Shown here: piece after piece, positions 5,287 through 57,243 of the stretch
Numbering within the stretch: the first letter of the stretch is position 1
How the letters are laid out: every line of letters starts with the position of its first letter
Source: Ruminococcus sp.
Lineage (GTDB): Bacteria; Bacillota; Clostridia; Oscillospirales; Acutalibacteraceae
DNA length: 64,000 bases
Direction: 5' to 3'
Assembly (NCBI GenBank): GCA_023665555.1
Contig: JAMPDR010000006.1
Coordinates: forward strand, 1 to 64,000
Position numbers and translations under genes: made by a program
The notes under the pieces: generated by a model
The model's database searches: none
The model's input: the letters and a program-made list of their open reading frames with translations, nothing else
Told to the model about the DNA's origin: nothing

Positions 5287-6718
5287 TAATCACACCATCC
5301 TTGGCGAAAATTCTTTCCTCAGTCGGAACGTATGTATCAAGTGCTCTAAAACTTTCCACACGTTCGTCAATAGGAACATATTTTTTAGGAAGAGAAATGC
5401 TCTTGTAAGCAGGACGCATAATACGTCCTCCCGTAATAATTTCTTCCATTCTGTGAGCCGACCATCCTGCAATTCTTGCGGTTGCAAACATCGGTGTGAA
5501 CAGATCCTCAGATACACCGAGAATTTTAAGTACAAGACCTGAATATAAATCTACGTTTGCGCAAAGCGGCTTATTATTTGACTTAATTTTTCTGAACAGT
5601 TCAGGCGTAAGTGTTTCGATAAGATTAATCAGTTCAAATTCTTTTTCATATCCGTGCTTATATGAAAATTCTTTTGCTTTTCTTTTGAGAATAACAGCGC
5701 GCGGGTCAGACAAGGTATAAACTGCATGACCCATACCGTAAATAAGTCCTGAGCCATCGCCGGCTTCTTTCTTGATAATCTTTTCAAGATATGCGGCTAC
5801 CTGCTCCTCACTGGTTATGTCTTCAACATGCTCCATGATATCTTCAATCATGCGGCGAACCTTAATGTTTGCACCGCCGTGTTTCGGTCCTTTGAGTGAA
5901 CCGATGGCAGCGGAATATGCTGAATAGGAATCCGTACCGCTTGAAGAAAGCACACGACAAGTGAAAGTTGAGTTGTTTCCGCCGCCATGTTCAGCGTGAA
6001 GCATAAGACAAATATCCAGCAACTTCGCTTCTTCATCAGTATATTTACGATCAGAACGAATTGAGCGAAGAATTGTTTCAGCGGTTGAAAGTTCCTTTTT
6101 ATCCGGGTGGAAATACATACTCTTACCTAATGACTTACGTCTTACTTGATAGCTGTAGCACATCAGGACAGGCATTTGCGCAATGATCTGTATACTTTGG
6201 CGAAGAACATTTTCAATTGAAGTATTATCGGGATTTTCATCATATGAATACAAAACAAGAACGCATCTTGCAAGTTTGTTCATGATGTCAACCGACGGAT
6301 TTCTCATTAAAACATCCTCAATGAAAGTTTCAGGAAGTTCACGGCATACACCGATTGCATTTTTGAAAAATTGCAACTGTTCCTTAGTCGGAAGTGAACC
6401 GAACATAAGAAGATAAACTACCTCTTCATAACCGAAACGATTCTCTTTTTCGCAGGCAGAAATAATGTCATTAATATTGACACCTCTATATTTCAATACA
6501 CCGTCCTTAGGCACTTTCTCACCGTCTTCAACATAGTAACCTTCAACACTGCATATTTTTGTAAGACCTGCCATAACACCTGTACCGTCATGGTTGCGAA
6601 GTCCGCGTTTAACACCGTATTTCCAAAAATCATCATGATTAATTTGGCTCTTACGTTCAATTTTTTCGCACATCCTTGCGAGCATTTCAGGTGAAATCGG
6701 ATTAATATTTTCGTGCAT
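5276..6718 (-). CDS. gltA: Citrate synthase
   Basis: 480 residues from the ATG at 6718, which has GGAGGTG 9 bases upstream; an in-frame upstream extension to 6808 has no ribosome binding site. Condenses oxaloacetate with acetyl-CoA. The first catalytic histidine region H-A-E-H-G-G-G-N-N-S-T-F is at about residue 245, the CoA/oxaloacetate region G-P-K-H-G-G-A-N at about 285, and G-M-G-H-A-V-Y-T-L-S-D-P-R at about 335. The long N-terminal region before the catalytic core is common in clostridial versions. It leads the operon. Confidence 0.95.
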   Translation of the reverse strand: MHENINPISPEMLARMCEKIERKSQINHDDFWKYGVKRGLRNHDGTGVMAGLTKICSVEGYYVEDGEKVPKDGVLKYRGVNINDIISACEKENRFGYEEVVYLLMFGSLPTKEQLQFFKNAIGVCRELPETFIEDVLMRNPSVDIMNKLARCVLVLYSYDENPDNTSIENVLRQSIQIIAQMPVLMCYSYQVRRKSLGKSMYFHPDKKELSTAETILRSIRSDRKYTDEEAKLLDICLMLHAEHGGGNNSTFTCRVLSSSGTDSYSAYSAAIGSLKGPKHGGANIKVRRMIEDIMEHVEDITSEEQVAAYLEKIIKKEAGDGSGLIYGMGHAVYTLSDPRAVILKRKAKEFSYKHGYEKEFELINLIETLTPELFRKIKSNNKPLCANVDLYSGLVLKILGVSEDLFTPMFATARIAGWSAHRMEEIITGGRIMRPAYKSISLPKKYVPIDERVESFRALDTYVPTEERIFAKDGVINEN

Positions 6719-54538: not shown

Positions 54539-54862
54539 TTACAAATTGGTTTTATATGCTTTTCCCCACTTTTCCATTTCATCAAGCAACGGACGTAAAG
54601 TTTCACCAAGCGGTGTGAGTGAATATTCGACCCTCGGAGGTACTTCCGCAAAAACCTTGCGATCGACCAGTCCGTCTTTTTCCATTGAACGCAAGCTATC
54701 AGTCAGAACCTTTTGGCTGATACCGTCAAGCGACTTTTGCAATTCATTAAATCTCCACGGACGTAAACGAAGATTGCGTATAATCAACAGTTTCCATTTA
54801 TTACCGATTAAAGAAACCGTTGTTGCCACATCACACTCAGGCAATTCTGCTTTTGTTTTCAT
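54539..54862 (-). CDS. HxlR-family winged-helix regulator
   Basis: 107 residues from the ATG at 54862 with GGAGGCAG 7 bases upstream. Features: early Cys (about residue 10, P-E-C-D-V), I-G-N-K-W-K-L-L-I-I-R-N-L (about 19-31), R-F-N-E-L-Q-K-S-L-D-G-I-S-Q-K-V-L-T, and V-E-Y-S-L-T-P-L-G at the wing. Some HxlR proteins sense oxidants or electrophiles through a conserved Cys. It points away from the RiPP locus with about 250 bases between the two starts, so it is the natural candidate regulator of that locus. Confidence 0.9.
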   Translation of the reverse strand: MKTKAELPECDVATTVSLIGNKWKLLIIRNLRLRPWRFNELQKSLDGISQKVLTDSLRSMEKDGLVDRKVFAEVPPRVEYSLTPLGETLRPLLDEMEKWGKAYKTNL

Positions 54863-55032
54863 ATGCTGCCTCCAATACATTCATTTTTTTATGTTACATT
54901 GATATTATACTGTTATGTATTTGCAAAGTCAATAAATCAATATCGCACAAAATGAAAATTACCATATCGGCTTATCTGTTTCATTTTTACCGAAAAATCA
55001 CATTCAGACAATAGTTACAAAAAAGTGCGTAC

Positions 55033-55060
55033 TTGTACAAAAAGAAAAAATCCGTATAAT
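55033..55060 (+). promoter_or_regulatory. Promoter and possible operator of the Cys-rich peptide locus
   Basis: TTGTAC (55033-55038), 16 bases, TATAAT (55055-55060). The -35 region overlaps GTACTTGTAC (about 55029-55038), a short palindrome that could be a regulator site. The peptide ATG follows 53 bases later. Confidence 0.65.
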
Positions 55061-55113
55061 AGCAGATACAGAGGAAAACAATCCGCTGAATATATTACAA
55101 GGAGGAAATAATA

Positions 55114-55287
55114 ATGGCACTTTCAAACCTTTCCGGATGGAATGATGAAAAGACTGCATCAGCTTGTGGTGCTACCTGCGGTGCTTCTGACGAGATTTTT
55201 GTTGCACCCGTTTGCTGTGCAGCCCATCCACCCGAAGAGAAGCCCGCTGCTTGCGGCTCTGCATGCGGTGCAGGCGACAAGGAATAA
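55114..55287 (+). CDS. Six-cysteine RiPP precursor peptide (ACGX-like)
   Basis: 57 residues from the ATG at 55114 with AAGGAGGAA 8 bases upstream. The N-terminal 16 residues (M-A-L-S-N-L-S-G-W-N-D-E...) look like a short leader. Six Cys lie at 18, 22, 34, 35, 47 and 51, in a mirror-symmetric pattern C-X3-C-X11-C-C-X11-C-X3-C. The two outer pairs read A-C-G-A-T-C-G-A and A-C-G-S-A-C-G-A, so ACGX-type units. It is followed by a hairpin and a radical SAM/SPASM gene, as in Cys-rich peptide systems where the enzyme makes thioether or related crosslinks. From memory this resembles the group TIGRFAMs calls the ACGX system. Confidence 0.85.
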   Translation: MALSNLSGWNDEKTASACGATCGASDEIFVAPVCCAAHPPEEKPAACGSACGAGDKE

Positions 55288-55309
55288 TTCCTTGCATCTG
55301 TTCTAACTG

Positions 55310-55342
55310 TTCCCGATGGGAATCGTCTTGTCGGGAATTTTT
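55310..55342 (+). terminator. Attenuator-like hairpin between precursor and maturase genes
   Basis: TTCCCGA / TCGGGAA, a 7-bp stem with a 14-base loop, followed by TTTTTG. Its position 23 bases past the precursor stop and 50 bases before the maturase fits partial termination, giving more precursor than enzyme message. Confidence 0.75.
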
Positions 55343-55391
55343 GAAAAATATATCGGTAAAAAACGATTTGATATATAGTGAGGTCAATACG

Positions 55392-56423
55392 ATGAAACAG
55401 TATTTTTCTTTTCAATGGCATATTACTGACGAATGTGATCAGCGGTGCAAGCATTGTTACATTTATTCCGGTGACGTTTGCAAGAAGATTGATTCTATGA
55501 ACCGGCAGCAAATGCAGGACACTTTTTATAACTGTTTGGATTTTTGCAAGGTGTACAACCGCCTGCCCTATTTCTACATTACAGGCGGTGATCCAATACT
55601 TCACCCTGATTTTTGGCGCCTGCTCACGTTACTTCATGACCACAACATACCTTTCACCATTCTCGGTAATCCTTTTCATCTTGACGATCAAGTGTGCAGT
55701 AAACTGAAATATTACGGCTGTAGAAATTATCAGCTTTCCATTGACGGACTACGTGAAACTCACGACTGGTTTCGCAAACCCGGTTCTTATGATTGTACTT
55801 TGGAGAAAATCGGATGCATTAATCGTGCCGGTATCCGAAGCGTGATTATGACTACAGTCTCCAAAACAAATCGCATTGAAGTGCCGGGAATCATTGACGC
55901 CGTAGTAAAAGCCGGGGCAAATGTGTTTGCGTTCTCGCGCTATGTTCCCAGCGGAGGGGATTTGGACGCTAGCATGACACCGCAGGAATACCGTGAGTTG
56001 CTCGCCATCTGCGACAAAAAGTTCAAGGAATATGAGGCTGCCGGATGCAACACCTATTTCAATAAAAAAGACCATCTTTGGACACTGTATGAGTACGAAA
56101 CAGGTACATTTAAAATTCCTCAAAATGCAAAAGAAGGCATGATATACAGCGGCTGTAACTGCGGCAACTGCCACATTACGATTCTCCCCACAGGAGATAT
56201 TTACGCATGCCGCAGAGTTGCGGAAAGCAAAGTCGGCAATGTGTTCCATGACAGACTTGCCGATGTGTGGGTATGTCAAATGGATACATACCGTGAATAT
56301 ACCAAGTTCGAGAAATGCTCAAAATGTGAACTTGCTCCATATTGCCGCGGCTGTCCTGCTGTTGCAAAAGGAACAAACGGAGATTTTTACAGTGCCGATC
56401 CTCAATGTTGGAAGGAGATATAA
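55392..56423 (+). CDS. Radical SAM/SPASM peptide maturase
   Basis: 343 residues from the ATG at 55392 (TGAGGT upstream). Radical SAM motif C-D-Q-R-C-K-H-C at about residues 15-22; T-G-G-D-P (about 64); L-S-I-D-G-L (about 118); SPASM region with many Cys (S-G-C-N-C-G-N-C, I-Y-A-C-R-R, C-S-K-C-E-L-A-P-Y-C-R-G-C-P), which would hold two auxiliary 4Fe-4S clusters. No separate RiPP recognition element is evident at the N-terminus. The adjacent Cys-rich peptide is its likely substrate. Confidence 0.9.
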   Translation: MKQYFSFQWHITDECDQRCKHCYIYSGDVCKKIDSMNRQQMQDTFYNCLDFCKVYNRLPYFYITGGDPILHPDFWRLLTLLHDHNIPFTILGNPFHLDDQVCSKLKYYGCRNYQLSIDGLRETHDWFRKPGSYDCTLEKIGCINRAGIRSVIMTTVSKTNRIEVPGIIDAVVKAGANVFAFSRYVPSGGDLDASMTPQEYRELLAICDKKFKEYEAAGCNTYFNKKDHLWTLYEYETGTFKIPQNAKEGMIYSGCNCGNCHITILPTGDIYACRRVAESKVGNVFHDRLADVWVCQMDTYREYTKFEKCSKCELAPYCRGCPAVAKGTNGDFYSADPQCWKEI

Positions 56424-56425
56424 CG

Positions 56426-57001
56426 ATGTTAATGGATTTAATTAAGGCTCGCCATTCAATTCGGAAATATACAGACCGTCAAATAAGCCGTGAAGACATG
56501 GAATTGATACTCGAAGCAGGAAATTACGCTCCAAATGCAGGCGGTGGTCAGCGCAGCATGATGATTGGGGTGAGAAACAAAGAACTGACAACCAAAATAG
56601 GCATCATGAATCTTGCAAAGTTTGACCGTACACATCTTGCAGGCTCTTATGTTTCAAAAGAACAGCCGAGTGTAATTGATGATTCCACAATGAAAAACGG
56701 TTTTTACGGTGCTCCTGCCGTTATTGCAATTTTCGGACAGAACAATTTCATGTTTCGGATAGCCGACGCTTTCTGCTGTGCTGAAAATATGGTTTTACAG
56801 GCAACAGAACTTGGCATTTCCTCTTGTATAATTTCTCGCGGTGAAGAAACTTTTATCAGCGATGAGGGCAAGGCAATTCTGAGAGAATGGAAAATACCCG
56901 AAAACTACTCTGCAATCTGTTTTATCACGCTTGGATATATTGACGGTGAACAGCCGCATACAAAACCAAGAAAAACAAATCGTGTTAAAATAATTGAGTG
57001 A
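56426..57001 (+). CDS. Nitroreductase-family flavoprotein
   Basis: 191 residues. ATG at 56426 lies 2 bases past the maturase stop, with AAGGAGA upstream. FMN-binding segments: R-H-S-I-R-K-Y (about 9-15), A-P-N-A-G-G-G-Q (about 38-45), G-A-P-A-V-I (about 97) and a C-terminal L-G-Y-I-D-G-E-Q-P. Nitroreductase-fold enzymes can oxidise peptide rings or reduce quinones and thiol-derived groups. The tight coupling to the maturase suggests a role in the peptide pathway, but no direct evidence is visible. Confidence 0.88.
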   Translation: MLMDLIKARHSIRKYTDRQISREDMELILEAGNYAPNAGGGQRSMMIGVRNKELTTKIGIMNLAKFDRTHLAGSYVSKEQPSVIDDSTMKNGFYGAPAVIAIFGQNNFMFRIADAFCCAENMVLQATELGISSCIISRGEETFISDEGKAILREWKIPENYSAICFITLGYIDGEQPHTKPRKTNRVKIIE

Positions 57002-57006
57002 GGTAA

Positions 57007-57243
57007 TATGACACAACAGGAAAACCAAATATATTTAATCAAAGAGTTCTGTTTTTGGAACTCGGTGTGGGATATAACACTCCCGTGATTATAAAATACC
57101 CGTTTTGGCGCTTGACAGTAAAAAACAGCAAAGCCGTTTATGTATGTATTAATTACGGCGAATCGGCATGTCCGAACGAGATTGAAAGGCAGTCGCTTTG
57201 TATTGACAGTGATATAGGAAGTGTGCTGAAGAAACTGATTTGA
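57007..57243 (+). pseudogene. C-terminal remnant of a SIR2-family (NAD-dependent deacylase) protein
   Basis: The frame open from 57007 to TGA 57243 encodes Q-R-V-L-F-L-E-L-G-V-G-Y-N-T-P-V-I-I-K-Y-P-F-W, then Y-V-C-I-N-Y-G and I-D-S-D-I-G. This matches the end of the clostridial Sir2 proteins, where the NAD-binding N-terminal domain comes first. That domain (G-A-G-x-S motif) is missing, and there is no good start. An ATG at 57008 in another frame gives only 26 codons. Confidence 0.65.

Follow-up and report, generated by a model that had tools for sequence, protein, structure and literature searches.

Does the mirror-symmetric arrangement of cysteines in a short peptide encoded by a Ruminococcus sp. 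genome reflect selection for a symmetric product, or is it an accident in the history of its gene? The peptide is the 57-amino-acid translation, MALSNLSGWNDEKTASACGATCGASDEIFVAPVCCAAHPPEEKPAACGSACGAGDKE, of an open reading frame at 55114–55287 on the forward strand of a 64,000-nucleotide stretch of contig JAMPDR010000006.1 (the whole of which is referred to here as the window), and its cysteines, at positions 18, 22, 34, 35, 47 and 51, are laid out as C-X3-C-X11-CC-X11-C-X3-C. A sequence-only reading had seen in this frame a RiPP precursor composed of ACGX-type units, lying beside its maturase and preceded by an excellent ribosome-binding site, and this much of it stood. The translation and cysteine spacing agreed exactly; AGGAGG (55100–55105, forward strand) precedes the ATG with a gap of 8 nt; and the family name that it used was borne out by a profile search in which residues 1–56 aligned to positions 1–65 of NCBIfam TIGR04341 with 50.2 bits (curated cut-off 28 bits).

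Because this match is accompanied by a MALSNLxxW leader and an upstream operator-like motif, both common to the window precursor and its relatives, the frame is counted as a real gene. Its product belongs to a named but uncharacterised ACGX-repeat family, and membership of TIGR04341, together with an adjacent radical SAM/SPASM enzyme of family TIGR04340, makes its reading as a RiPP precursor well supported. The window shares with the ACGX system defined by these two models the gene order, the leader and the ACGX units, and both of its proteins pass the curated cut-offs, although its precursor has few units, a hydrophobic first spacer (EIFVAPV) and a central VCCAAH in place of AACGAAD. ACG is found at C18, C47 and C51, and TCG at C22, such that the peptide consists of two ACGX-ACGX-type doublets around one degenerate middle unit. 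No paper on the ACGX family, or on ACGX with radical SAM, was found in the open-access library that was searched.

The maturase gene (55392–56423, forward strand; TIGR04340, rSAM_ACGX, 591 bits against a cut-off of 400) begins 104 bases past the precursor stop codon. Pfam Radical_SAM and SPASM both match its product, in which the CX3CX2C cysteines (C15, C19 and C22) and the SPASM cysteines (C255, C273, C309, C312, C318, C321 and C339) are invariant among 33 sequences. The gene is intact and, with 87–88% identity to relatives, low dN and saturated synonymous sites, is under purifying selection. In two relatives the maturase frame is broken by a stop after 247 codons (L059:6001–6741 and L091:1495–2235, the stop being TAG in L091). 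An AF2 model of the window enzyme (pLDDT 85.9) aligned with CteB from CteB residue 92 onward (Z 26.2), but CteB, anSME, ChlB, SkfB and SuiB fell within about 2 Z units of one another, and with CteB, anSME and SuiB near-tied the comparison of modelled structures does not separate chemistries; two chemistries are compatible with its sequence and fold. The N-terminal region of CteB is its RRE. Since the alignment omits that region, the leader is probably held by the enzyme core, and the maturase would bind the short MALSNLxxW sequence without an RRE domain.

Precursors were extracted from the 80 loci best matching the window maturase and from loci of a class-wide sample, giving 74 distinct homologues (the window precursor excluded) with 470 cysteines in total, most of them drawn from the 80 best matches, with distant branches under-sampled. 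Cysteine context was close to uniform, with Gly following in 463/470 cases and Ala preceding in 450/470. Spacings were mostly 13 (192 cases), 4 (166) or 9 (22), and arise from tandem units such as ACGxxDKPEEKPA and ACGxACGx, the number of which varies freely between precursors. As these are tandem repeats, palindromic spacing lists are common (27/74), and three homologues (L068, L020 and L043) carry the layout [4,13,13,4]. The window precursor is this same layout less one residue of the first spacer, with Gly35 changed to Cys; the Cys35 codon, TGT, is a single base (G-to-T) from GGT. The central unit has also lost the Asp at +4, where His now stands. The mirror plane thus consists of one canonical cysteine and one mutant neighbour. 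A CC pair was not found among the 470 cysteines of the 74 homologues, and the symmetric layout of the window precursor was seen in none of its relatives, which keep the maturase nonetheless. Since a [4,13,13,4] repeat yields this centre through one substitution and the loss of one residue, the mirror symmetry is best explained, on comparison of these sequences, as an accident in a worn tandem repeat rather than a conserved feature. It had been proposed that two equivalent crosslinked arms are joined at the CC centre, and here the earlier account gave way: its ACGX-unit RiPP precursor holds, its selected symmetric centre is not supported. The mirror layout is certainly there, but it carries little information and is of no importance in itself.

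What does recur is the setting of the gene, and the new result is that the precursor–maturase pair sits in a cassette conserved across relatives. Genes were counted by tblastn around maturase loci. A divergent HxlR gene was present in 60/65 relatives' loci with enough sequence, a nitroreductase or PIG3-like quinone reductase lay directly downstream of the maturase in 91/96, and a PNPOx-N/ferredoxin protein (47/60), a macrodomain (41/58) and a sirtuin (40/52) were frequent; no further gene family recurred often around the 96 maturase loci. A match to 5a3a (E 1.5e-73) places the sirtuin in the macrodomain-linked class, SirTM, and one to 8rsi (6.3e-83) makes the macrodomain a Zn-class member. Across 391 genomes sampled evenly from the taxonomic class, SirTM was found in 15 of the 17 maturase-bearing genomes, compared with 50 of the 374 lacking the maturase (Fisher 5e-11, phylogeny ignored), and in 12 of the 17 the two genes shared a strand and lay about 4 kb apart or less. 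In genomes with no match to the maturase, SirTM/macrodomain pairs were accompanied by HxlR in 9/16 cases and by PNPOx-Fd in 4/16. As such pairs also often carry HxlR, ACGX and its maturase appear to be a module that HxlR/SirTM cassettes may carry or lack; and as SirTM cassettes exist without ACGX, the link between ACGX and SirTM may be loose. The cassettes resemble described SirTM/Zn-macrodomain operons (PMC4518038, PMC11490716) in the homologous SirTM and Zn-macrodomain genes that most relatives carry, but differ in that neither GcvH-L nor LplA is among the recurring ACGX neighbours, the flavin partners are not the same, and the pair has been lost from the window genome. In six loci (L017, L022, L026, L046, L062 and L078) SirTM was present with no macrodomain match beside it, unlike elsewhere, where the two act as a pair. 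On the reverse strand of L102, an ACGX precursor is truncated and runs on into other sequence (its frame starts near base 5364, counted on the reverse complement); its maturase is missing while HxlR, PNPOx-Fd, macrodomain and SirTM remain, a parallel loss of the module.

The divergent regulator of the window (54539–54880, reverse strand; Pfam HxlR PF01638, 1.6e-31) is of the HxlR/DUF24 family. Its closest NCBIfam model was redox_TF_RrpB, with a score under the cut-off of that model. An N-terminal cysteine ahead of the first helix, the residue with which DUF24 proteins sense redox state, was present in all 81 HxlR neighbours (Cys16 in the window, within PECDVATTV), and DUF24 regulators are sensors of HOCl, quinones and diamide (PMC6943732). 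A candidate operator, AAAAGTGCGTACTTG (55021–55035, forward strand), lies just upstream of a −10-like TATAAT at 55055–55060 and has only this one exact copy in the whole genome; the related pattern GTGCGTACTT occurs roughly 80–105 bases before the precursor gene in 73/78 upstream regions. The HxlR protein would act at this operator-like motif. Between precursor and maturase, a 13-bp hairpin followed by TTTTT (55309–55343, forward strand) was predicted in the fold of 55288–55391 (−27.6 kcal/mol), and is a possible attenuator. Stems of at least 10 bp were found in this gap in 68/79 relatives versus 29/79 shuffles, but a loose hairpin-plus-T test did hardly better than chance (41/79 versus 96/237 shuffles). 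L003 and L006 have a similar hairpin (TGTTCCCGGCGGGA).

Downstream of the maturase, the window retains an open nitroreductase-family flavoprotein gene (56426–57001, forward strand; PF00881, 8e-21) and, beyond it, a deletion scar (57008–57243) in which the start of a macrodomain gene is fused to the C-terminal part of SirTM. The first piece (57008–57045, forward strand; MTQQENQIYLIKE) comprises the first ~12 codons of the Zn-macrodomain gene and aligns with the starts of those in L007, L070 and L003; the second (57037–57243, forward strand) is about the last quarter of SirTM (69% identity, residues 222–286 of 289). The genome yielded no further SirTM match and no macrodomain match, and PNPOx-Fd is absent beside the locus. 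Intact SirTM and Zn-macrodomain genes are present in most relatives; of the pair, the window has only the fused remnant. As none of 33 sampled congeners carries the maturase, the cassette has probably been gained by transfer or lost widely; in a quick tree the window maturase was placed near L004 and L003 without firm support.

The maturase would oxidise cysteines in A-C-G sites, a 5-thiooxazole type of product being most likely and a Cys-to-Asp thioether second. The former is modestly favoured because A-C-G is near universal and SbtM (TIGR04082) is the nearest characterised maturase family. SbtM acts on Cys/Sec with loss of 4 H (PMC11002830) and scored best of the characterised families against the window maturase, albeit with 154.8 bits over the C-terminal 318 model positions only, well under its 350-bit cut-off, and the window system gives no sign of selenocysteine. 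When 61 genomes from the phylum were searched for SbtM nothing matched, not even the controls, so the result is uninformative. A thioether of the ranthipeptide kind, as formed by PapB between Cys and Asp/Glu in C-X3-D/E, is a possible though minority reading, and would here link C22 to D26 and C51 to D55, the only C-X3-D units of the precursor, for −4 Da in total. PapB accepts such motifs (PMC9413430), the CGAxD units fit them exactly, and 276/470 homologous cysteines have D/E at +4, with Cys at +4 in 166 more; CteB was also the top, if near-tied, structural match. Yet more of the cysteines stand in an A-C-G context than have D/E at +4, and the score against the PapB/freyrasin model (NF047865, 67.6 bits, cut-off 340) was far short of that cut-off and below that for SbtM. 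Of the window cysteines, 18, 22, 47 and 51 keep ACG or near-ACG context, while C34 and C35 lack it and probably escape the usual modification; any crosslinks in the peptide are hypothetical. In captophorins, an MNIO enzyme produces 5-thiooxazoles in EGKCG repeats of Cu-binding, stress-linked peptides (PMC12668002). These resemble the ACGX peptides in their small Cys-Gly repeats with acidic and Lys residues and in their association with stress, but differ in enzyme class (MNIO with a partner) and precursor family.

A purpose-built symmetric peptide might still be defended on the exactness of its spacing and on the intact, selected maturase, from which the peptide is probably still in use; however, with a CC centre in none of 74 relatives, palindromes commonplace in so repetitive a family, and a central unit that has lost its +4 Asp as well as its Gly, selection for symmetry is scarcely credible and was rejected on these homologues. 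That the worn centre belongs to a wholly decaying locus, with it and the macrodomain/SirTM remnant being relics of relaxed selection on a system dead in this species, is a weightier suggestion, though still an unlikely one. The deletion of two cassette genes, the missing PNPOx-Fd, the 33 congeners without the system and the truncated, maturase-less precursor of L102 would all suit it, but the substitution pattern of the maturase, the open nitroreductase frame and the intact operator-like motif and ribosome-binding site would not. A secreted, bacteriocin-like sactipeptide, as a radical SAM/SPASM maturase beside a Cys-rich peptide might suggest, is very improbable: the genes that recur around the 96 maturase loci are those of redox enzymes and of ADP-ribosylation, and include no transporter, peptidase or immunity family.

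The account that we consider somewhat better than evenly probable is of an ACGX precursor with a degenerate middle repeat and accidental symmetry, lying in a stress cassette of HxlR/SirTM type. In such a cassette, a thiol-sensing HxlR/DUF24 regulator would control precursor, maturase and flavin/quinone reductases through a dedicated operator, with induction by redox or electrophile stress; a Zn-macrodomain/SirTM ADP-ribosylation pair, here mostly deleted, often follows. Since export and protease genes do not recur and the neighbours are redox genes, the ACGX product, a thiol peptide, would probably remain within the cell and handle thiol, electrophile or metal stress.

A bolder and rather improbable extension is that the peptide, once its cysteines are matured, serves as a dedicated redox carrier for the HxlR/SirTM cassette, in place of the lipoylated GcvH-L that has a role in staphylococci and streptococci; flavin enzymes would reduce it, and SirTM and the Zn-macrodomain would switch it through ADP-ribosylation of Asp/Glu. 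Were this so, ADP-ribosylation would control the ACGX peptide, a RiPP. What SirTM enzymes act on when they lie outside GcvH-L operons is, according to PMC11490716, not known, and the ACGX cassette offers candidate partners for them. For the ACGX family itself, its constant neighbours (regulator, operator-like motif, reductases and the SirTM/Zn-macrodomain pair) may give a first testable function, in thiol and electrophile stress.
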